Origin: Oscillospiraceae bacterium
GTDB lineage: Bacteria; Bacillota; Clostridia; Oscillospirales; Ruminococcaceae
Length of the DNA stretch: 32,347 bases
Direction: 5' to 3'
NCBI GenBank assembly: GCA_031260665.1
Contig: JAISLD010000024.1
Span: 1 to 32,347, forward strand
A program made the position numbers and the translations under genes. Under the pieces are notes generated by a model, which was not told the DNA's origin, searched no databases, and saw only the letters and a program-made list of their open reading frames with translations. Below, piece by piece: positions 21,662-30,206 of the stretch (position 1 is its first letter; each line of letters begins with the position of its first letter).

Positions 21662-21676
21662 TCGGGCTTGTTTTTT
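21642..21676 (+). terminator. Possible weak terminator at the end of the activase gene
   Basis: AACAAG in the last codons pairs with CTTGTT just after the stop, followed by a run of six T. The stem is only 6 bp with a 19-nt loop, so termination is likely partial. The T run overlaps the -35 region of the mreB promoter. Confidence 0.3.
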
Positions 21677-21696
21677 CTGTTGATATATGATATAAT
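21668..21696 (+). promoter_or_regulatory. Extended -10 promoter for mreB
   Basis: TTGTTT at 21668-21673, 17 nt, TATAAT at 21691-21696 preceded by TGA, so it is an extended -10 with a weak -35. The start site would be near 21703, giving a leader of about 250 nt before mreB. Confidence 0.7.
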
Positions 21697-21719
21697 AGGC
21701 AGAAGTGTCTGCTATGGGC

Positions 21720-21794
21720 TTTGCGGACGTGCTCGCCCCGCTGGAGCAACCGCCCTTTGACGCGCAATTGTCACACATTTTCAAGGTGTGACAA
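21720..21794 (+). promoter_or_regulatory. Structured leader element, copy 1 (mreB leader)
   Basis: This consists of a 48-nt core (21720-21767) followed directly by a 27-nt hairpin (21768-21794; arms TTGTCACAC and GTGTGACAA). The core ends pair (TTGCG with CGCAA). Inside, TGCTC pairs with GAGCA around the loop GCCCCGCTG. The core matches 41 of 48 positions with the leader of the DRE-TIM/murC unit, in the same orientation relative to transcription and at nearly the same distance from a TATAAT. A near-direct 22-nt repeat flanks it (21695-21716 and 21794-21815, 3 mismatches). The function is unknown: a cis-acting RNA, or a promoter-bearing small repeat. Confidence 0.65.
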
Positions 21795-21837
21795 TAGGTA
21801 CAAGTGTCTGTTATGCACACTTTATTATTAAAGTAAA

Positions 21838-21920
21838 CACTGATTGGCTGACGAAGAAGCAGTGTTCTCCTCACCACCTTTGGCGGGGAGGGGGAACGCT
21901 AAGTGATTAGTCAATCGGTG
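21838..21920 (+). promoter_or_regulatory. Large imperfect stem-loop just upstream of the mreB ribosome-binding site
   Basis: The outer arms (21838-21851 and 21907-21920) pair over 14 positions, three of them G-U only in the + strand RNA. An inner segment (21861-21900) pairs over a further 11 positions, again using U-G pairs, around an apical CCTTTGG. The mreB ribosome-binding site GAGGT (about 21940) lies 19 nt after the structure. It could attenuate, protect or sequester the message, or be a decayed palindromic repeat. Confidence 0.5.
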
Positions 21921-21951: not shown

Positions 21952-22971
21952 ATGTCCTCTCTTGATATAGGTATTGATTTAGGTACAGCGAACGTAATCA
22001 TCACACTTGGCGGCAAAGGCATTGTTATCAACGAGCCGAGTGTCGTGGCTTACGACCGCAAGAAGCAAGAAGTAGTCGCCGTTGGACTTGAAGCGTATAA
22101 GATGATAGGCAGAACGCCCGAGTATATCGTAGCGGTGCGCCCTCTCCAAGACGGCGTTATTTCTGACAACGATATGACCGAGGTGATGATTCACGAGTTC
22201 ATCAAGAAAGTCAAAGGCAGCGTGGTTCTGAAGCCGCAGATTATCCTCTGCGTGCCTTCTTCAGTCACCGATGTTGAAAAGCGAGCCGTCATTGAGGCCG
22301 CGTTGTCGGCAGGCTCACGAAAGGTCTGGCTGATAGAAGAACCTATCGCGGCACTTCTTGGTGCAGGCGTTGATATCACACTGCCGGGCGGCAAAATGGT
22401 GGTGGATATAGGCGGCGGCACCGCTGATATCGCCGTCGTGTCGTTCAACGGTATAGTTCACTCGGAGTCAATCAAAATGGCGGGCAACAAGTTTGACGCG
22501 TCGATTATTCGCTATGTGAACCAGAAGTTCAAGCTGCTGATTGGTGAAAAGACAGCGGAGATGGCAAAAAAGCAGATAACAAACGTGTTTGACCCCGACG
22601 GTTCTCGCAAAATGGACGCAAAGGGGCGCAACCTCGTTGACGGGCTTCCCTCACGTGTTGAGATAACCGACATCGATATGGAGAAGGCACTCCGCGAGGA
22701 CGTCAGCACGCTCATCTCGGCAATCAAAGATGTGTTTGAGAAAACGCCGCCTGAACTTGTCGGCGATATCTTGGTGAACGGGATAATTATGACGGGAGGC
22801 GGCGCAATGCTTGGCGGTCTGCCGCAGCTGATAACGCACGCGCTTCGTGTCCCCTGTTATGTCGCCGACAATCCTATCGAGTGTGTCGCCCGCGGTGTAG
22901 CGAAAGCGTTTTCTTGCTCCGACCAGCTGCTCGACGGCTTTGAGTTGGTGTCGGTCTACAAGTACAAATGA
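21952..22971 (+). CDS. mreB: Rod-shape-determining protein, MreB/Mbl family
   Basis: The 339-residue actin-like protein polymerises under the membrane and guides the lateral wall synthesis machinery. Actin-fold nucleotide motifs are in place: phosphate 1 GIDLGTANVIITLGG (residues 7-21), the INEPSVVAYD strand, LIEEPIAALLGAGVDI, phosphate 2 MVVDIGGGTADIAVVS and the adenosine loop IMTGGGAMLGGLPQL. The length is standard. The N-terminus is short and lacks the basic amphipathic helix of Gram-negative MreB, as expected for Firmicutes. GAGGT lies 7 nt before the ATG. No mreC or mreD follows; a strong terminator comes 13 nt after the stop, so it is transcribed alone. A long structured leader precedes it. 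Which MreB/Mbl/MreBH paralogue it is cannot be settled here. Confidence 0.95.
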   Translation: MSSLDIGIDLGTANVIITLGGKGIVINEPSVVAYDRKKQEVVAVGLEAYKMIGRTPEYIVAVRPLQDGVISDNDMTEVMIHEFIKKVKGSVVLKPQIILCVPSSVTDVEKRAVIEAALSAGSRKVWLIEEPIAALLGAGVDITLPGGKMVVDIGGGTADIAVVSFNGIVHSESIKMAGNKFDASIIRYVNQKFKLLIGEKTAEMAKKQITNVFDPDGSRKMDAKGRNLVDGLPSRVEITDIDMEKALREDVSTLISAIKDVFEKTPPELVGDILVNGIIMTGGGAMLGGLPQLITHALRVPCYVADNPIECVARGVAKAFSCSDQLLDGFELVSVYKYK

Positions 22972-23044: not shown

Positions 23045-23456
23045 CATTATCCCAAAGGTCATACCGCTCGGCGTACAAGCGGGCGACCGCTCGGTGCCAG
23101 AGTGGCAACAGCTAATGCAATACATTATCCCATCGGCGCACAGGCGGGTGACCACTCGGTGCCCGAGTGGCAACAGCTAATGCGATACATTATCTCGAAG
23201 ATCATACCCCTCGGGCGCACAGGCGTGCGACCGCTCGGTGCCCGAGTGGCAACAACTAATGCGATACATTATCCCGAAGGTCATATCTCTCGGTGGCACA
23301 GGTGGGCGACCATTCGGTGCCCGAGTGGCAACAGCTAATGCAATACATTATCCCATCGGCGCACAGGCGGGTGACCACTCGGTGCCCGAGTGGCAACAGC
23401 TAATGCGATACATTATCCCAAAGGTCATACCTCTCGGTGGCACAGGTGGGCGACCA
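23045..23456 (+). repeat. Tandem array of six 65/79-bp units with a conserved hairpin
   Basis: Units begin CATTATCCC at 23045, 23123, 23188, 23267, 23346 and 23411, with lengths 78, 65, 79, 79, 65 and a partial last unit of 46. Units 2 and 5 are identical over all 65 bases, so a two-unit block (143-144 bp) has itself been duplicated. The short units lack 14 nt just after CATTATCCC. Each full unit holds an 8-bp hairpin, CCACTCGG-TGC-CCGAGTGG in its canonical form. Variants CCGCTCGG and CCATTCGG keep pairing through G-U in + strand RNA; unit 1 has one mismatch. Alternating unit lengths break any reading frame. The role is unknown. Confidence 0.9.
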
Positions 23457-23616: not shown

Positions 23617-23649
23617 ATTGTTTGAAAGACGTGTTCGTTTAATACAAAA

Positions 23650-24018
23650 TATTTCGCATAACTTTTATTATAAGGAAATAGGCAGCCCCCTGCCCTTGCG
23701 CACAAAACGACTCTTATAAAAAAATGCATTTCGCATAACTTTTATTATTTAGCAATAACGAAAGTTTAAGCCACAAGAGCTATTAGTTTCCCTGCTCTTT
23801 TAATGTTAAATGTACTTGTAAACACAAAGTATTTCGCATAACTTTTATTATTTAGCAATAGGTGGTCGCCCTGCCCCTATGTCGTTGAACGGTTCTATTT
23901 AAGGGAAGAAGTATTTCGTATAACTTTTATTATTTAGCAGTAGGCGGTAGTCCCTGCCCTTGTGTGCAAAACGACTCTATAAAAATGCATTTCGCATAAC
24001 TTTAATTATTTAGCAATA
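23650..24018 (-). repeat. Five-copy repeat that includes the 3' end of murC
   Basis: A 31-nt motif ending TTATTTAGCAATA on the + strand occurs at 23650, 23727, 23830, 23912 and 23988, spaced 77, 103, 82 and 76 nt. The last copy covers the final MurC codons (Ile-Ala-Lys) and stop, and copies 2 to 4 keep the same stop-codon sequence outside the gene. The spacers after copies 1 and 4 are also alike (both contain CCCTGCCCTTG, then AAAACGACTCT and ATGCATTTCGC). Spacers 1, 3 and 4 can form a 5-bp hairpin right after the motif. A further 13-nt partial match, TATTTCGTATAAC, lies near 23523-23535. The copies are not exact and the spacers are too long and related for a CRISPR. Confidence 0.85.
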
Positions 24019-25367
24019 AGCATATCGGACACCTTATAAACGTCGCCGCACCCCATCGTGATGATGAGGTCACCGTCACTCGCGAGCTCTCGCGCCCTGT
24101 CCGCAACACGCACAAAGTCGCCGAGCATTTCCGCCCCAACAATCTTTGCGGCAAGCATATCGGCGGTCACGCCCCACGCGTTCGCTTCCCTGCCGCCCAT
24201 TATGTCCGTCAGCAAAACCTTGTCGGCAAGCGACAACGCCTCGGCAAATTCGTTCATCAGTTCGTTAGTTCGTGAATACGTGAACGGCTGATGGATGACA
24301 ATCACTCGCTTAAACCCCATTGTTTTCGCAGCGTTCAGCGTCGCCGCGACTTCTGTCGGGTGGTGGGCATAATCATCAACCACGACTGCGCCGTTCAGTG
24401 TGCCTTTGCGTTCAAACCGCCTACCTACGCCATTAAATGCGTTCAGCCCCTCGCAAATAGATGAAAACTTTGTTCCGCGGAGCAACGCGGCAGCGGCTGA
24501 CGCAACAGCGTTCAGCACATTGTGCGTACCCGGCACACGAATCGTCACATCACCAATGCATTCAGCTTTGCCAATCAGCGTGAACTTTGTTTCAAACGGA
24601 GCGATATATTCGATATTTGTTGCATAATAATCGTTGGTGTCGGCGAAGCCGAACGTCACGCGTTTGCCCGCAAAGCCGCTCTGTTCCACGGCTTTCACGG
24701 TGTTCACGTCGTCGCCGTTATAGAGAACAGCGTCACGTGTCATTCCCACGAACCTGCTAAATGACGTGATAAGGTTTTCCATATTGCCAAAGTAGTCGAG
24801 GTGGTCGTTGTCTATGTTAAGCACTATCGACAGCGTGGGCGAAAGGCGCAGAAACGTATCCTTAAACTCACAGGCTTCAATCACAATTGAATCGCCGTTT
24901 CCGCTTTTTCCGTACCCGTGAACAGCAGGGAGTTTGCCGCCGATTACCGCCGACGGGTCTGCCCCGTCAGCAAGGAGAATCTGCGTCAGCATTGATGTCG
25001 CCGTGGTTTTGCCGTGTGTGCCGCAGACACAAAGCGCGTGTTGATACCAACTGCTCACGAGTCCAAGCAGTTCACTTCGTTCACGTACCTCGATATTAAG
25101 TGAACGTGCCGCAATCAGCTCCACGTTGCTTTCGGCTATAGCAGCTGAATAAACGACAAGTTCAGCACCGTTCACGTTTTCAGCCGAATGTCCCAGCATC
25201 ACTTTCACGCCGTTTGCTTCAGCCAAGCGAAACGTCGCGGTGTCGTTGTTGTCCGAACCGCTGAGTTCAAAGCCTTTGGCGAGCAGGATTTGCTCTAACG
25301 GCAACATTCCGCTGCCCCCGCACCCGATGAAATGAACTTTTTTCTTGCCCGAAAGGAAGTCTTTCAT
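24006..25367 (-). CDS. murC: UDP-N-acetylmuramate--L-alanine ligase
   Basis: This cytoplasmic ligase adds L-Ala to UDP-MurNAc, the first peptide step of peptidoglycan precursor synthesis. The 453-residue product has the N-terminal UDP-binding GCGGSGM (residues 16-22), the ATP loop GTHGKTTAT (116-124), EACEFKDTFL, the NIDNDHLDYF segment with the Mur-family metal-binding His, GTHNVLNAVA and the C-terminal-domain DDYAHHPTEV motif. AGGTG lies 5 nt before the ATG. It is separated by 98 nt from a DRE-TIM-like gene on the same strand and probably shares its promoter and structured leader. The extreme C-terminus (MLIAK) and stop lie within a repeat that recurs four times downstream, so the exact C-terminus may have been set by the repeat. 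Confidence 0.97.
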   Translation of the reverse strand: MKDFLSGKKKVHFIGCGGSGMLPLEQILLAKGFELSGSDNNDTATFRLAEANGVKVMLGHSAENVNGAELVVYSAAIAESNVELIAARSLNIEVRERSELLGLVSSWYQHALCVCGTHGKTTATSMLTQILLADGADPSAVIGGKLPAVHGYGKSGNGDSIVIEACEFKDTFLRLSPTLSIVLNIDNDHLDYFGNMENLITSFSRFVGMTRDAVLYNGDDVNTVKAVEQSGFAGKRVTFGFADTNDYYATNIEYIAPFETKFTLIGKAECIGDVTIRVPGTHNVLNAVASAAAALLRGTKFSSICEGLNAFNGVGRRFERKGTLNGAVVVDDYAHHPTEVAATLNAAKTMGFKRVIVIHQPFTYSRTNELMNEFAEALSLADKVLLTDIMGGREANAWGVTADMLAAKIVGAEMLGDFVRVADRARELASDGDLIITMGCGDVYKVSDMLIAK

Positions 25368-25465: not shown

Positions 25466-26419
25466 TTAACTGAAGAAATCGCTTTTCTTCTTCGATAAGA
25501 GCGACAGCTCGGGTGAGCAGTCCTCAATCGCGCCACGAATGTCGGCGACGCTCTCCTCAAACTGCAAAACTTTCGTCAGCTTTCGCTCTGTCATTGGGCG
25601 AAACATCCTGTTCCTCGCAACGATTGTTTCAAAGAAATCAACCTCTTTGATTGGCACGCGATTGCCGTCAATCCGCGGCACGAGCCGTGGTTTGTGCGTG
25701 TAAATCGCCATTAACGCGTCCACCGCGTCGAAATTCATGCCGAGGTCGTCTTTGCCGATAAACATCGCTTTGCCCATTCCCTTGACAAAGCTGTCGTTCT
25801 TGACTTGGCGGTACAGCACAGAGAGCGTCAGATACAGCCCCTCAAGCGAAGCAAAGCCGCTTCCGTCGCCAAGGTGAGCGGTCACGCTGTCGGTTTCGGC
25901 AAGGCAGGCGCGAACGGCGCAGTCAATCGCGTTCATACTTGTGTCGATTGGGCAGATGTCAAGCGGTGTTGAATAACGCGAACGATAAGCGGCGACTATC
26001 TTGTGAATCTCGCTGCCGTCGCCCAAGTCGCCAAGCAAGCGCACCAACGAAAACTTTGTGAGGTCAATGTTGTCGGAAACGACTTTCATATAAGCGATAG
26101 GGTCCTCGCAGCCAAACGGTGCTTCCAGCATAACAGGCGTGTTGAACCGCTCCGCTAAGTACGACAGACGAAGCGGAAGCAGCACATAGCCGAAGCCCAA
26201 GCTGTCAACAAGGTCTATCGCCGCCGCATCGTGCAAGCGGTATATCAGGTGGCTTCGGTCAGCGACGACTATGGTGTGAAGCAAGGCGTTCAAGTCAAGC
26301 TCAACGTAAGACACGCCGCTCTCAATGAGAGCGTTTGTATATAAGAATATGTTTGCTTTGGTTGTGCCTTGCCTAAAATTTGCCTCGACAAGGCTGCGGT
26401 CTATCAGCACGGTTTTCAT
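25466..26419 (-). CDS. Degenerate DRE-TIM metallolyase-like (isopropylmalate/homocitrate synthase-like) protein
   Basis: The 317-residue product follows the layout of the HMGL-like barrel: an N-terminal VLIDRSLVEANF where active enzymes have D-T-T-L-R-D-G-E-Q, then ALIESGVSYVELDL where they have a GVDYIEVG-type strand, and GDGSGFASLEGLYLTLSVL (184-202) where they have the G-E-R-x-G-N-A-S-L-E segment. The metal-binding H-x-H-N-D is missing: the equivalent strand reads LDICPIDTS (153-161), and the catalytic Arg of the first motif is Val. I therefore expect it not to do the usual acyl-CoA/2-oxoacid condensation. It could be a regulator, a binding protein or an enzyme with altered chemistry. It precedes murC and starts behind the structured leader. 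The ATG has a weak AGGT site. Confidence 0.65.
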   Translation of the reverse strand: MKTVLIDRSLVEANFRQGTTKANIFLYTNALIESGVSYVELDLNALLHTIVVADRSHLIYRLHDAAAIDLVDSLGFGYVLLPLRLSYLAERFNTPVMLEAPFGCEDPIAYMKVVSDNIDLTKFSLVRLLGDLGDGSEIHKIVAAYRSRYSTPLDICPIDTSMNAIDCAVRACLAETDSVTAHLGDGSGFASLEGLYLTLSVLYRQVKNDSFVKGMGKAMFIGKDDLGMNFDAVDALMAIYTHKPRLVPRIDGNRVPIKEVDFFETIVARNRMFRPMTERKLTKVLQFEESVADIRGAIEDCSPELSLLSKKKSDFFS

Positions 26420-26447
26420 AAGTACCTGTTAAGTTGATTCACGACTA

Positions 26448-26522
26448 TTATACCATATCGTAGATATGATATAATTGCGTATCAGAGGGCGGTTGCCCCA
26501 ACGGGGCGAGCCCGTACGCAAA
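26448..26522 (-). promoter_or_regulatory. Structured leader element, copy 2 (DRE-TIM/murC leader)
   Basis: Read on the minus strand, a 48-nt core (26522-26475) is followed directly by a 27-nt hairpin (26474-26448; arms TTATATCATATC and GATATGGTATAA around TAC). The core ends pair over 7 bp (TTGCGTA with TACGCAA). Inside, GGGC pairs with GCCC and GCCCC with GGGGC; an alternative GCTC/GGGC pairing is shared with copy 1. The hairpin's second arm contains most of another extended -10 (TGGTATAAT, 26455-26447), so it may also be a second promoter. Confidence 0.65.
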
Positions 26523-26544
26523 ATATAGCTGATTGAGTGTGTCT

Positions 26545-26573
26545 ATTATACCACATTATCAGCTTCATTTCAA
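26545..26573 (-). promoter_or_regulatory. Sigma-A promoter for the DRE-TIM/murC unit
   Basis: On the minus strand TTGAAA (26573-26568), a 17-nt spacer, and TATAAT (26550-26545) preceded by TGG. The start is predicted near 26538, giving a leader of about 120 nt that contains leader element copy 2. Confidence 0.85.
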
Positions 26574-26678: not shown

Positions 26679-27275
26679 ATGATTTACGCACAGACACAAG
26701 ACGAACTGCAGTTTGAAGAAATCTATCGCGGCAAAATCAAGCGAGAGGGTGCCGACAAGCTCTACGACTTCTTGAAAGACAGCGACTTCTTTGTCGCACC
26801 CGCAAGCACGCGCTTTCACGGCTCATACGAGGGCGGTCTGCTTCGCCACTCGCTCAATGTCTACGAATGTTTGATCGATTTGGTTGACCGACCGCGTTAT
26901 AAAGACAACTACGGCTTCAACTACAGCGAAGAAACTATCGCGCTTGTATCCCTGCTCCACGATGTTTGCAAGGTGAACATCTACAAAAAGACTTATCGCA
27001 ACCGAAAAAACGAAAGCACGGGTCAATGGGAATCCTACCCGTTCTATGAGTTCAACGACAACCTGCCTTACGGTCACGGCGAAAAGTCGGTCTATATGGT
27101 CGGCGGCTTCGTCAAGCTGACGCGTGAGGAATCAATGGCAATACGTTGGCACATGGGCTTCTCGGGCCTTGAGGAGAAGAACACAATCGGCAAAGCACTC
27201 GAAATGTATCCCCTCGCATTTCTCCTCGCAACCGCCGATATGGAAGCAAGTTACTTTATGGAATCGAATACTTAA
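26679..27275 (+). CDS. HD-domain phosphohydrolase-like protein
   Basis: The 198-residue protein has an HD-fold metal site: His57 (GGLLRHSLNVY), His94-Asp95 (LLHDVCKVNIYKK), His133 (YGHGEKS) and His158 (IRWHMGFSG). This spacing resembles stand-alone HD proteins related to the C-terminal domain of YhaM-type 3'-5' exoribonucleases and small nucleotide hydrolases. The RNA-binding OB domain of YhaM is absent. The substrate is unknown. I choose the ATG at MIYAQTQ, with AAGG about 9 nt upstream; the frame is open 48 nt further, but that would put the ribosome-binding site inside the gene. The stop codon and final two codons (Asn-Thr) lie in a 36-bp tandem repeat. ftsK follows in the same direction after about 100 nt and may be co-transcribed. 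Confidence 0.85.
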   Translation: MIYAQTQDELQFEEIYRGKIKREGADKLYDFLKDSDFFVAPASTRFHGSYEGGLLRHSLNVYECLIDLVDRPRYKDNYGFNYSEETIALVSLLHDVCKVNIYKKTYRNRKNESTGQWESYPFYEFNDNLPYGHGEKSVYMVGGFVKLTREESMAIRWHMGFSGLEEKNTIGKALEMYPLAFLLATADMEASYFMESNT

Positions 27276-27343
27276 TTAAAAACAAGCTGTTTTAGGTAAT
27301 CGAATACTTAATTAGAAACAAGCTGTTTTAGGTAATCGAATAC
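27262..27343 (+). repeat. 36-bp tandem repeat (2.3 copies) that includes the stop of the HD gene
   Basis: Copies at 27262-27297 and 27298-27333 differ at one base; a 10-nt start of a third follows (27334-27343). The first copy begins inside the last codons of the HD gene (AATCGAATACTTAA, coding part of Ser, Asn, Thr, stop). Each copy can fold AAAACA-AGC-TGTTTT. The unit is a multiple of three, so even readthrough would meet the same stop again. Confidence 0.9.
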
Positions 27344-27377
27344 ATAACACTTAATCATTATTTTCAGGAACAAAACT

Positions 27378-30206
27378 ATGCCCGTCGTTAAAAAGCCAAG
27401 TTCAACCTCAAAAACAGCGGCTGAACCGAAGCGAACCCCCTCCGTTGTCCGTGAGAAAGTCCTTGCCGAAGAGAAAACAAGGCGGCAACGATTCTCGATA
27501 TTCCTGTTTGCGCTCGGAGTTCTTCTCATCGTGTTCTCGCTGGTCGGCAACGTCCACGCGGAAACGCCGAACGTCACTGATTCCATCAAGTCGTTCCTCT
27601 ACGGAATGTTCGGTGTGTCGGTGTTTCTCACAGGACCCGTCGCTATCTACATCGCCGTCAATCTCTCGCGTGAACACGCGGCTGCGCCTATTCGCTTGTG
27701 GCAGCTCGCGTTTTATATGGCGCTCGTCAGTGGCGCGGCGCACATTTTTCTCGGAAAAGCCGACTTCACAAAAGTCGAGGGCTTCAAAGAAACCGTGGCT
27801 CTCGCTTTTTCACTCGGCAAAGAAGTAGTCGGCGGCGGTGTTTACGGGTTGATACTCGGCGTTCCGCTTATGCTGTTCGGGAAGATAGTCGCGGGTGTGA
27901 TTATCGTCCTTATGCTGTTCGTCACGCTGACGTTTTCGCTTCAGATAACGCTGTCCGATGTGATTGACGTGTTCAAGAAACCGTTTGGTCATTTCAAGAA
28001 CCGCGCCGCCGAGGGAATCGAACGCGGTGCGGCACGCCGCGAGATACTGCGGGAAGAACGCCGCGAACAACTTGAACGCGAACACCGCGAGAAGCTGACG
28101 CACAAAGCGACACGCGAGGAAATCAACGCGGTGCATAAGCAAGTTGCTCGGTTTGAAACTCTGTCGCCTACCAAGCCGACCGAAGAAGGCGCGGACCTCC
28201 GCGAGAAGATTCGGCGTGCCGACGACCTTGTGCGCCCCACACCTGTGTTCACCGATAACACACCGATTCAGTCACAACCGATTCAATCTGAACCGACTCA
28301 GTCGGAGCCGATTCAATCTGAACCGACTCAGTCGGAGCCGACTCAGTCGGAACCGACTCAGTCGGAGCCGACACCAGCTGAACCAATACAAAAACGAGTG
28401 ATACCGCCGTTTTTCCCAATCGAACCGACAGTACCGGCAGTACCGGCAGTACCGACAGCACCGCAAGAAATCCCGCCCGACTTGCCGTTTGACTTGGCGG
28501 AAGAAGAAAACCCCGTGACGCAGGCAGTTCAAGCGCTGCAAGACGAGAAAGCCGAAGAAGAAAAGGCTCGTAAAGAACTTGAGCAGAAACTGCTCGCCGC
28601 TGAAGAGCCGCAACCCGAAGAAGTAAAGCTCCCAACCGAGTCGCCGCTTTCAAACGACCAAACCGACAAAACCGACCGCACCTTTGAGGCGGAACGCGAC
28701 ATCGCGGCGTTGCTAAGCCGATACACACTCCCCCCGACGTTGCTGCTGAACGACGTAATCATCACGCGGCAACCCGATGAGATTGAGCAAGAGTTGGCTC
28801 TCAACTCCGACAAGTTGGTTGAAACACTGAAGAGTTTCGGTGTGATGACAAAAGTTATCGGCGTTTGTCGCGGTCCGTCTGTCACACGATACGAGGTGCA
28901 ACCTGCTGCCGGTGTGCAGATATCAAAAATCACGCGTTTGGTTGACGACATTGCGCTTAGTTTCGCGGCGGCAGGCGTGCGAATCGAAGCGCCTATCCCG
29001 GGGAAAGCCGCAGTCGGTGTTGAAGTTCCGAACCGTCACACCGACACCGTGCCTTTCCGTTCTCTCATCGAAAGCCCGCTCTTTGGCGCAACCAAGAGCA
29101 AACTCGGTGCGGCAATCGGCGTTGATATCACGGGGCAAACGATTGTCGCCGATATTGCCAAGATGCCGCATATCCTCATCGCAGGCACGACAGGTTCGGG
29201 CAAATCCGTATGTGTCAACTCAATCATAATGAGCATACTCTTTCGTTCCGTGCCGAACGAGGTGCGGCTGCTGATGATTGACCCAAAAGCCGTTGAGTTT
29301 ATGATATACAACGGAATTCCGCACCTGCTGATTCCCGTGGTGACCGACCCGAAGAAAGCGGCGGGCGCACTTGGTTGGGCTGTGACCGAAATGCTTGCGA
29401 GATATAAACTCTTTGCCGAGAACAACGTCCGCGACCTTGCGGGGTACAACGCACACTTAAAGAAGCACGCCCCCGATAAAGAGCCGCTGCCGCAAATCGT
29501 CATCTTCATTGACGAACTTGCCGACCTCATGATGGCGGCGCCCGGTGAAGTCGAGGATTCAATCTGTCGGCTTGCACAAATGGCTCGTGCCGCCGGTATG
29601 CACCTCGTTATCGCGACACAGCGGCCGTCTGTCAACGTGGTCACGGGTGTTATCAAGGCGAATATCCCAAGCCGTATCGCCTTGAAAGTCGCTTCTCAAG
29701 TGGACAGCCGCACAATCATTGACTCTGCGGGTGCGGAGAAGCTGCTCGGTAAAGGCGATATGCTCTACTTCCCTGTCGGTGCGCCCAAGCCGATACGCGT
29801 GCAGGGGTGCTGGGTTTCTGAAAAAGAAGTTGACCGTGTGGTCGAGTTCATCAAGAACAGCTTTACTTTAAGTTACGACACCAGCGTTATCGAGGAGATT
29901 GAACGTCAAGCAGAGCAAGCCGAGTTGTCGGGCGGCAAGAAGAAAAAGCAGTCTGACGACGACGACTTCGGGGAGGTTGACGGCGGCGATGAACGGCTTG
30001 AGGACGCGATTGACGCGGTGCTTGAAGCGGGACAGGCAAGCACGTCGTATCTTCAGCGTAAACTGAAACTCGGCTATGGCAGAGCGGCGCGTTTGATTGA
30101 TTTGATGGAAGAAATGGGCGTGGTCGGTGAGTTCGAGGGGAGCAAGCCACGACAAGTGATTATGACGCGGCAGGAGTGGCTTGAACGCAAGATGAACAAG
30201 TCATAA
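27378..30206 (+). CDS. ftsK: FtsK/SpoIIIE-family DNA translocase
   Basis: The 942-residue membrane-anchored, hexameric dsDNA pump clears chromosome DNA from the division or sporulation septum. A basic N-terminus is followed by about four hydrophobic helices (roughly 36-57, 73-96, 107-126, 147-187), then a long charged linker. The linker has a Pro/Gln/Ser/Glu pentapeptide repeat at about 296-335 and a Val-Pro-Ala repeat. The motor has the Walker A GTTGSGKS at 603-610 and Walker [12 protein letters not shown] with Asp712-Glu713. The C-terminal winged-helix gamma domain (about 865-935) includes [21 protein letters not shown], which reads orientation sequences on the chromosome. AGGA is 8 nt before the ATG. 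No other division genes adjoin it, so FtsK versus SpoIIIE cannot be decided. Confidence 0.96.
28263..28382 (+). repeat. 15-bp tandem repeat inside the ftsK linker
   Basis: Eight 15-nt units (the last one diverged) encode Pro-[IT]-Gln-Ser-Glu repeats. The commonest unit contains CCGAC-TCA-GTCGG, itself a small inverted repeat, so the coding DNA is a string of hairpin-prone units. A shorter 9-nt GTACCGGCA repeat encoding Val-Pro-Ala follows near 28429-28455. Copy number is likely to vary between strains by slippage. Confidence 0.9.

Follow-up and report, generated by a model that had tools for sequence, protein, structure and literature searches.

The window, by which we mean the whole stretch of 32,347 nucleotides that was analysed, carries two related leaders, one in front of mreB on the plus strand and the other, on the minus strand, in front of a gene for a 317-aa product that is followed by a Mur ligase gene. 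This product, named 'DRE-TIM' in the first-pass annotation, is without a Pfam match up to E 0.01, and the name is used below only as a label for the second copy. As that annotation had reported, a -10 box and a hairpin are common to both leaders, and re-measuring gave the same spans, i.e. 104 nt from TATAAT (21691-21696) to the hairpin end at 21794 for mreB and 103 nt from TATAAT (26550-26545) to the hairpin end at 26448 on the minus strand for DRE-TIM/murC. The 48-nt core with 41 identical positions was recovered as well (the best ungapped 48-mer starts at 21722 on the plus strand and runs downward from 26520 on the minus strand). Chance is excluded for this likeness, as a 61-nt query taken from the DRE-TIM copy finds the mreB copy at E 8.3e-11 in the genome that contains the window (G000). 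The features are the following.

21668..21673, plus strand: -35-like hexamer TTGTTT of the mreB copy (3/6 to TTGACA, spacing 17)
21691..21696, plus strand: left -10 box TATAAT (TGnTATAAT) of the mreB copy
21697..21721, plus strand: leader between -10 box and core of the mreB copy, by eye an imperfect inverted repeat (ATAGGCAGA/TCTGCTAT)
21722..21769, plus strand: 48-nt core of the mreB copy, with mismatches in stems P2 and P3
21768..21794, plus strand: right hairpin of the mreB copy, with GACAAT in place of TATAAT in a 3' arm that pairs fully with the 5' arm
21791..21815, plus strand: degenerate restart of the unit in the mreB copy, 21/25 identical to 21692-21716
21952..22971, plus strand: mreB, the gene behind the first copy (MreB_Mbl, E 1.9e-124)
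24006..25367, minus strand: Mur ligase gene (murC of the first-pass annotation), next after the 317-aa gene
25466..26419, minus strand: gene behind the DRE-TIM copy, 317 aa
26447..26452, minus strand: right -10 box TATAAT (TATGGTATAAT) of the DRE-TIM copy, which is the 3' arm of the right hairpin, about 28 nt 5' of the start codon
26448..26474, minus strand: right hairpin of the DRE-TIM copy (13-bp stem region, loop of about 3 nt)
26473..26520, minus strand: 48-nt core of the DRE-TIM copy (P1 TGCGT/ACGCA, P2 GGGC/GCCC, P3 GCCCC/GGGGC, TC + AACC loop)
26521..26544, minus strand: leader of the DRE-TIM copy, of type B, common to loci L010, L015 and L017
26545..26550, minus strand: left -10 box TATAAT (TGGTATAAT) of the DRE-TIM copy
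26568..26573, minus strand: -35 hexamer TTGAAA of the DRE-TIM copy (5/6, spacing 17)

The two copies are in different states. The DRE-TIM copy is intact, with the -35 hexamer TTGAAA, both -10 boxes and a stable fold, since as single-stranded RNA it folds much better than its shuffles (z -4.98, 0/200). The mreB copy is old: P2 and P3 contain mismatches, the right -10 box has become GACAAT, a degenerate restart lies behind it and no excess folding energy over shuffles is seen for the single-stranded RNA (z -1.16, 20/200). With its core lost, this copy is hardly plausible as a functional regulator of mreB. The earlier remark that the leader is not a known riboswitch class holds for Rfam 15, with which the window has no match at gathering score, while a search with 17 loci of the element family returned only T-box and tRNA matches at that score. 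Below it, Chloroflexus-1 (24.7 bits against a gathering score of 181.5, opposite strand, 21719-21894, E 2.1e-4) and dfrA-dnaX (20.8 bits against 48.6, at 26447-26492, E 4.8) were considered and rejected.

Copies, neighbouring genes and the core hairpin

In G000 (1.46 Mb, 95.6% complete), the 61-nt query has 25 matches, each with E ≤3.5e-9, which correspond to 15 loci when the contig-end pairs L015/L017 and L016/L023, whose end sequences agree, are each scored as one. Units are about 80-100 nt long and seven of the 15 loci have two or three of them in tandem, with a period of 96-117 nt; since contigs break at two of these arrays, the arrays may be longer. A sixteenth locus, before metG, is a core-less remnant that keeps both ends. 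The leaders between -10 box and core fall into types that are shared across unrelated loci, type A by L009, L011, L013 and L014, and type B by the DRE-TIM copy of the window, L010 and L015/L017.

An open reading frame on the same strand lies behind the element at all 16 loci, although for the 15 core-bearing ones the script took same-strand frames only. A Pfam match was found for 13 of these 15 frames, the exceptions being that of L020 and the DRE-TIM gene. The genes encode a Mur-ligase-domain protein, an aldehyde-alcohol dehydrogenase (adhE-type), a hexapeptide transferase, two ABC ATPases, a cation (zinc) efflux protein, a MiaB-like protein, HisRS (hisS), a Rce1-like protein, a histidine kinase, an M16 peptidase, a HGSNAT-type protein, MreB and, at the remnant, MetRS (metG). 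Because these genes are unrelated, they do not form an envelope regulon. By eye, an element array also stands directly before a tRNA-Ser-like gene in another genome (L261, G115), and a core-like hairpin lies among tRNA-gene fragments in a third (L254, G167).

An exact-pattern scan for the core returned at least 115 stretches, 39 of which were dropped (other bacterial groups, chance-like or masked). Of the 74 distinct cores kept, 62 entered the alignment (A2) and 12 stayed outside, some being near-duplicates and some (L092, L130, L162) unfit for a 7-bp P2. The core hairpin reads P1 (5 bp), an AT bulge, P2 (7 bp), a TC/AACC internal loop and P3. Pairing is kept in 93.0% of the cells of A2, a percentage raised by leaving out the cores unfit for a 7-bp P2, and P3 is invariant because the search pattern fixed it. 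Two-sided changes occupy 198 cells against 57 in shuffles, and covariation amounts to 0.496, where shuffles give 0.124 and a slid pairing no more than 0.107. Two of the five measures were no better than shuffles, namely the number of pairs with a two-sided change (10 against 9.8, 386/500) and that of further pair types (33 against 30.9, 123/500). Judged from this alignment, the core is a hairpin that covaries strongly among relatives in the same bacterial order.

The spread of the core depends on the model used. The exact pattern occurs in three of 197 genomes, a model of the whole unit matches in nine of the 60 genomes of the genus (G000 included), and the core model matches in at least 20 of the 147 genomes of the order, with at least 21 copies in G000, 18 in G150, 12 in G124 and 11 in G160, numbers that are lower bounds because six sites that looked core-less proved to have cores missed by stricter filters. 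These six sites came from a search for an autonomous copy by means of left hairpins without a core, and all six inspected have one. At the congener loci L048, L050, L051, L055, L057 and L059, the same P1 and TATAAT end hairpins surround a core of another type, which has no TC/AACC loop; this second type was read from 13 whole-unit-model loci minus L049, L056 and L061. A phage or plasmid origin was rejected, as phages and plasmids gave no match to the window copy at E 0.01. The exact core pattern is found in two viral contigs (150 nt were read on each side), in one of which (L361) it lies, by eye, near a stretch that resembles a variable region as found in the target genes of diversity-generating retroelements.

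Occupied and empty sites, and arms that match the target

A unit consists of a -10 box, a leader, the core and a hairpin whose 3' arm is another -10 box, so that in tandem arrays the right -10 of one unit doubles as the left -10 of the next. With D standing for the TATAAT-containing -10 box and D' for the reverse complement of it that the element carries, the order is D - tip1 - D' - core hairpin - D' - tip2 - D. This is plainest in the genus g7, where the left flanking hairpin reads TATAATA-GCCGC-AAA-GCGGC-TATTATA and the right one ATTATAC...GTATAAT.

Four g7 species with many copies each (G030, G088, G106 and G147) were compared. The gene starts behind eleven copies were searched in five genomes and gave ten ortholog groups, with gene starts 83-98% identical. 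The junction is clean in six groups (g267, g268, g275, g281, g283 and g269), which provide 11 comparisons with left flanks identical at 54/82 to 72/74 positions and right flanks at 50/77 to 65/72. The inserts measure 109-111 nt for one unit and 215-220 nt for two, and the filled site is laid out as promoter, unit and second -10. In g267, for instance, the empty site reads ...ttgacaaacATGGTATAATA|agcatagacgg and the filled one ...ttgacaaacATGGTATAATA|111 nt ending in ATGGTATAATA|atcgcagacgg. At one g7 gene, the number of units varies between species (2, 3, 2 and 1 in L270, L273, L277 and L286).

A second target was found in the genus g14, where one copy stands in the terminator T-tract of a T-box-like valS leader. 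The filled site (L369) reads ...ggggcgaacTTTTT|element|TTTTTattgcccc and the empty ones (L371, L386) ...ggggcgaacTTTTTTTgcccc. The inner arms of T-tract copies are A-runs that complement the target, and many copies in the genome collection likewise stand after terminators. A crude sort of the 74 cores by their left hairpin gave 33 with a T-run, 11 with a -10 box, 14 with another hairpin and 16 with none, although at least three of the 14 (L115, L116, L154) look -10-type by eye. Occupied and empty orthologous sites, the signature of a mobile element, are thus both seen, to judge from the alignments, in g7 (the six clean groups) and in g14 (valS and asnS). The 'core' flag used in the g7, g14 and mreB-upstream comparisons was a loose pattern that also fires on T-box sequence in g14, and presence was therefore judged by eye. 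Insertion was told from excision by parsimony, without a tree. For the copies in G000, both window copies included, no empty site was found; the mreB product of the window is only 64-74% identical to those of congeners, and the upstream sequence of the gene differs.

At the level of sequence, these comparisons establish that a filled site and its empty ortholog are told apart by one or two units placed at the -10 box, that the left -10 still follows the upstream sequence of the old promoter and that the second -10, at the right end, stands at about the old distance from the gene. G000 points the same way, since a -35 match of at least 4/6 precedes 10 of the 16 left -10 boxes and none of the 19 right copies, against 12.7% of random positions. 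The idea that the unit is a small mobile repeat carrying its own promoter comes close: the repeat is mobile, yet a complete promoter does not travel with it, as the -35 side is locus-specific and the element sits in a pre-existing -10.

Not every group is so simple. A -10 box flanks the element on both sides, yet the right copy is not always derived from the target: in g281 the target TTGTATAATA differs from the right -10 copy ATGGTATAATA, and in g272 the filled left -10 TGATATAATA differs from the TGGTATACT of all three empty sites. Two of the ten g7 groups, as aligned, do not appear to fit simple target duplication. The junction is not clean in g276 (flanks 47/82 and 40/85), g280 is also poorly aligned, and in g271 a third species has only a remnant of the right hairpin. 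L340 (G106, group g268) and L387 may be scars.

The arms inside the element follow the target closely. In 31 loci, the 5' arm of the right hairpin forms 251 of 279 possible Watson-Crick pairs with the local left -10 (shuffles 229.7, sd 3.0, 0/20000) and the base before TATAAT matches the arm in 22 of the 31 (expected 9.3, 1/20000), although shuffles overstate independence because the copies are related. These loci were hand-chosen, with related copies included and both the second core type and loci lacking a right hairpin left out. The arms follow rare target variants as well: at L268, which has TACAAT as its target -10, TTGTAC is found in both inner arms. However, the match is not always present, since L010 and the DRE-TIM copy of the window match their targets only with G.T pairs. 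Two explanations remain for the arms, which may have guided insertion by pairing and then been corrected as palindromes, or may have been copied from the target at insertion. One copy, at L054 (1495-1640), was inserted outside a promoter: the last stretch of a coding sequence (GTGAAATAA, leuS by eye) serves as its left arm and is matched by the inner arm.

A probable mobile element at the -10 box and its alternatives

Taken together, these observations very probably reflect a non-autonomous mobile element of ~100-110 nt whose insertion site is the -10 hexamer of a sigma-70-type promoter already in place. The core and the end hairpins would be recognised by an enzyme acting in trans, and the inner arms would either choose the target by base pairing or be rewritten from it afterwards, e.g. 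by template switching at imperfect palindromes. RNA started at the left promoter would carry the element as a structured 5' leader, and the right extended -10 may start a short one. Insertion into a -10 box should destroy the promoter, a problem that this element family seems to have solved: as one -10 is kept on each side, it can spread through the 5' leaders of essential genes (tRNA synthetases, miaB-like, mreB). Nature would thereby supply empty, single and tandem variants of the promoter of one and the same gene. The element also points to a mobilising enzyme that has hairpins as its substrate, in a broad group of bacteria of the intestinal type.

A bolder version, which we put forward only tentatively, is that of a promoter-hunting element whose own arms define the landing site (the -10 box or, in related subfamilies, the T-tract of a terminator), each new target then serving as template for the arms, so that matched hairpins arise along with a fresh -10 for the next unit. 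If true, bacterial DNA would here move in a new, target-templated way, and the host promoter would be preserved while a structured leader is added.

Among the alternatives, the one that survives best, though unlikely, is an element like REPIN/RAYT or IS200/IS605 that owes its mobility to a Y1 (HUH) transposase with single-stranded hairpins as substrate. The hairpins at both ends without terminal inverted repeats and the short target motif on both sides would suit it, as would the pairing of an inner segment with the target, which is also a property of IS200/IS605 guides. However, the end hairpins differ strongly between loci of one genome, and PF01797 (Y1 transposase) has no match in G000, at its 95.6% completeness, nor in six further genomes of the genus that carry the element. 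The family is present in eight of 20 genomes, with and without elements, and a Y1 transposase was rejected as partner because its presence shows no pattern with that of the element.

A conserved cis-regulatory RNA (riboswitch or attenuator) co-controlling a regulon, the reading that the first-pass annotation had offered for two envelope functions, is now improbable. Its attractions are the gene on the same strand behind every G000 locus and, by eye, behind 20 of 20 loci of g7, the strong covariation of the core and an HD-domain-type gene (by eye) at which each of the four g7 species has kept the element. Insertion at -10 boxes is by itself sufficient to explain the orientation bias, with no need for selection on regulation, and the bias has its exceptions, since among six further loci the copy at L366 is antisense to dnaK, before which it lies (gene named by eye), and the orientation of L365 is uncertain. 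The unrelated genes, the filled and empty orthologs, the varying number of units at one locus, the T-tract version placed after terminators, the right hairpin without a U-tract behind it and the lack of an Rfam match at gathering score all seem difficult to reconcile with such an RNA. The association with mreB is not conserved either. MreB was found in 30 of the 31 genomes of the genus sample, and the 330 nt before the gene contain no element in the 27 other genomes with a full upstream side. The gene before mreB encodes a BadF/DUF2229 protein in the window and a tRNA nucleotidyltransferase-type protein in the two cases tested (L206, L203). An envelope regulon was accordingly rejected, the lost fold of the mreB copy being a further argument. 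A leader can thus be conserved, covary and precede many genes without being a riboswitch.

Equally improbable is an RNA intermediate, in which a transcript of the element, with its D' complementary to the -10 strand, would be reverse transcribed into the target. RNA pairing would fit the G.T pairs by which D' matches the target in L010 and the DRE-TIM copy, and the element is presumably transcribed from its own site, but RVT_1 has no match in eight element-bearing genomes (G150, G160, G106, G147, G030, G088, G085 and G010). It is present in G000, G124, G115, G037 and G177 and in nine of 20 genomes overall, and a reverse transcriptase was rejected as partner for want of a pattern, eight of the element-bearing genomes among these 20 having none. 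Local tandem duplication of a promoter by recombination, without transposition, would account for the near-identical tandem units within a locus but is extremely improbable, given the same core and leader types before unrelated genes and the single units with empty orthologs.

Known systems and other repeats in the window

The mobile element favoured here shares features with several families of small repeats. REPINs and REP sequences are defined in PMC8049555 as short, dispersed, hairpin-forming, non-autonomous, extragenic and locally amplified, and to that extent the element resembles the REPIN/REP-RAYT systems. It differs in not consisting of two inverted REPs, having a single asymmetric core with a TC/AACC loop, and in targeting the -10 box; the RAYT side has no counterpart, as no Y1 transposase was found in G000. 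MITEs are likewise short and non-autonomous and have a repeated target at the two ends, to which the -10 boxes flanking this element may correspond, but terminal inverted repeats, expected of a MITE of a DDE insertion sequence, are absent from the aligned units, in which the end hairpins are by eye different palindromes. The inner arms are instead complementary to the target, and one core serves two targets (-10 box and T-tract). BOX, ERIC and RUP intergenic repeats are modular hairpins near genes that occur as tandem modules, like the element, which unlike them is placed exactly in the -10 box and oriented toward the gene.

In the guide-directed insertion of IS200/IS605 elements and with the bridge RNA of IS110, segments of the element pair with the target, as here, but no enzyme of the IS200/IS605 kind was found in G000 and in the element described here the arms also follow rare variants of the target. 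Putative mobile promoters reportedly place a similar promoter sequence before non-homologous genes, whereas the -35 side of the present element is local and the -10 box is split, a second one being added. Such promoters (Matus-Garcia et al. 2012) are cited in PMC9944727. Among open-licence papers, titles and the first lines of abstracts contain no description of an element that targets the -10 box. By analogy, the element would appear to work like guide-paired small transposable elements, and on the comparisons made here it belongs to no family among those considered.

The window contains other repeats as well. On the 3' side of mreB, 23068-23437 is made of tandem and higher-order repeats with units of 65 and 79 nt (88-93% matches), which include the hairpin CCACTCGGTGCCCGAGTGG and the motif GGTCATACC; similar text, GGTATGACC, is found before metG (L359) and near L018. 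A 52-nt repeat (TATTTCGCATAACTTTTATTATTTAGCAATA) occurs five times between mreB and the Mur ligase gene (23647-24036), with its copies spaced 76-103 nt apart. A 36-nt tandem repeat (2.6 copies, 92% matches) occupies 27255-27347, just before a 942-aa open reading frame at 27378, and within this frame a 15/30-nt tandem repeat (ACCGACTCAGTCGGA, 28262-28384) encodes a low-complexity protein stretch.
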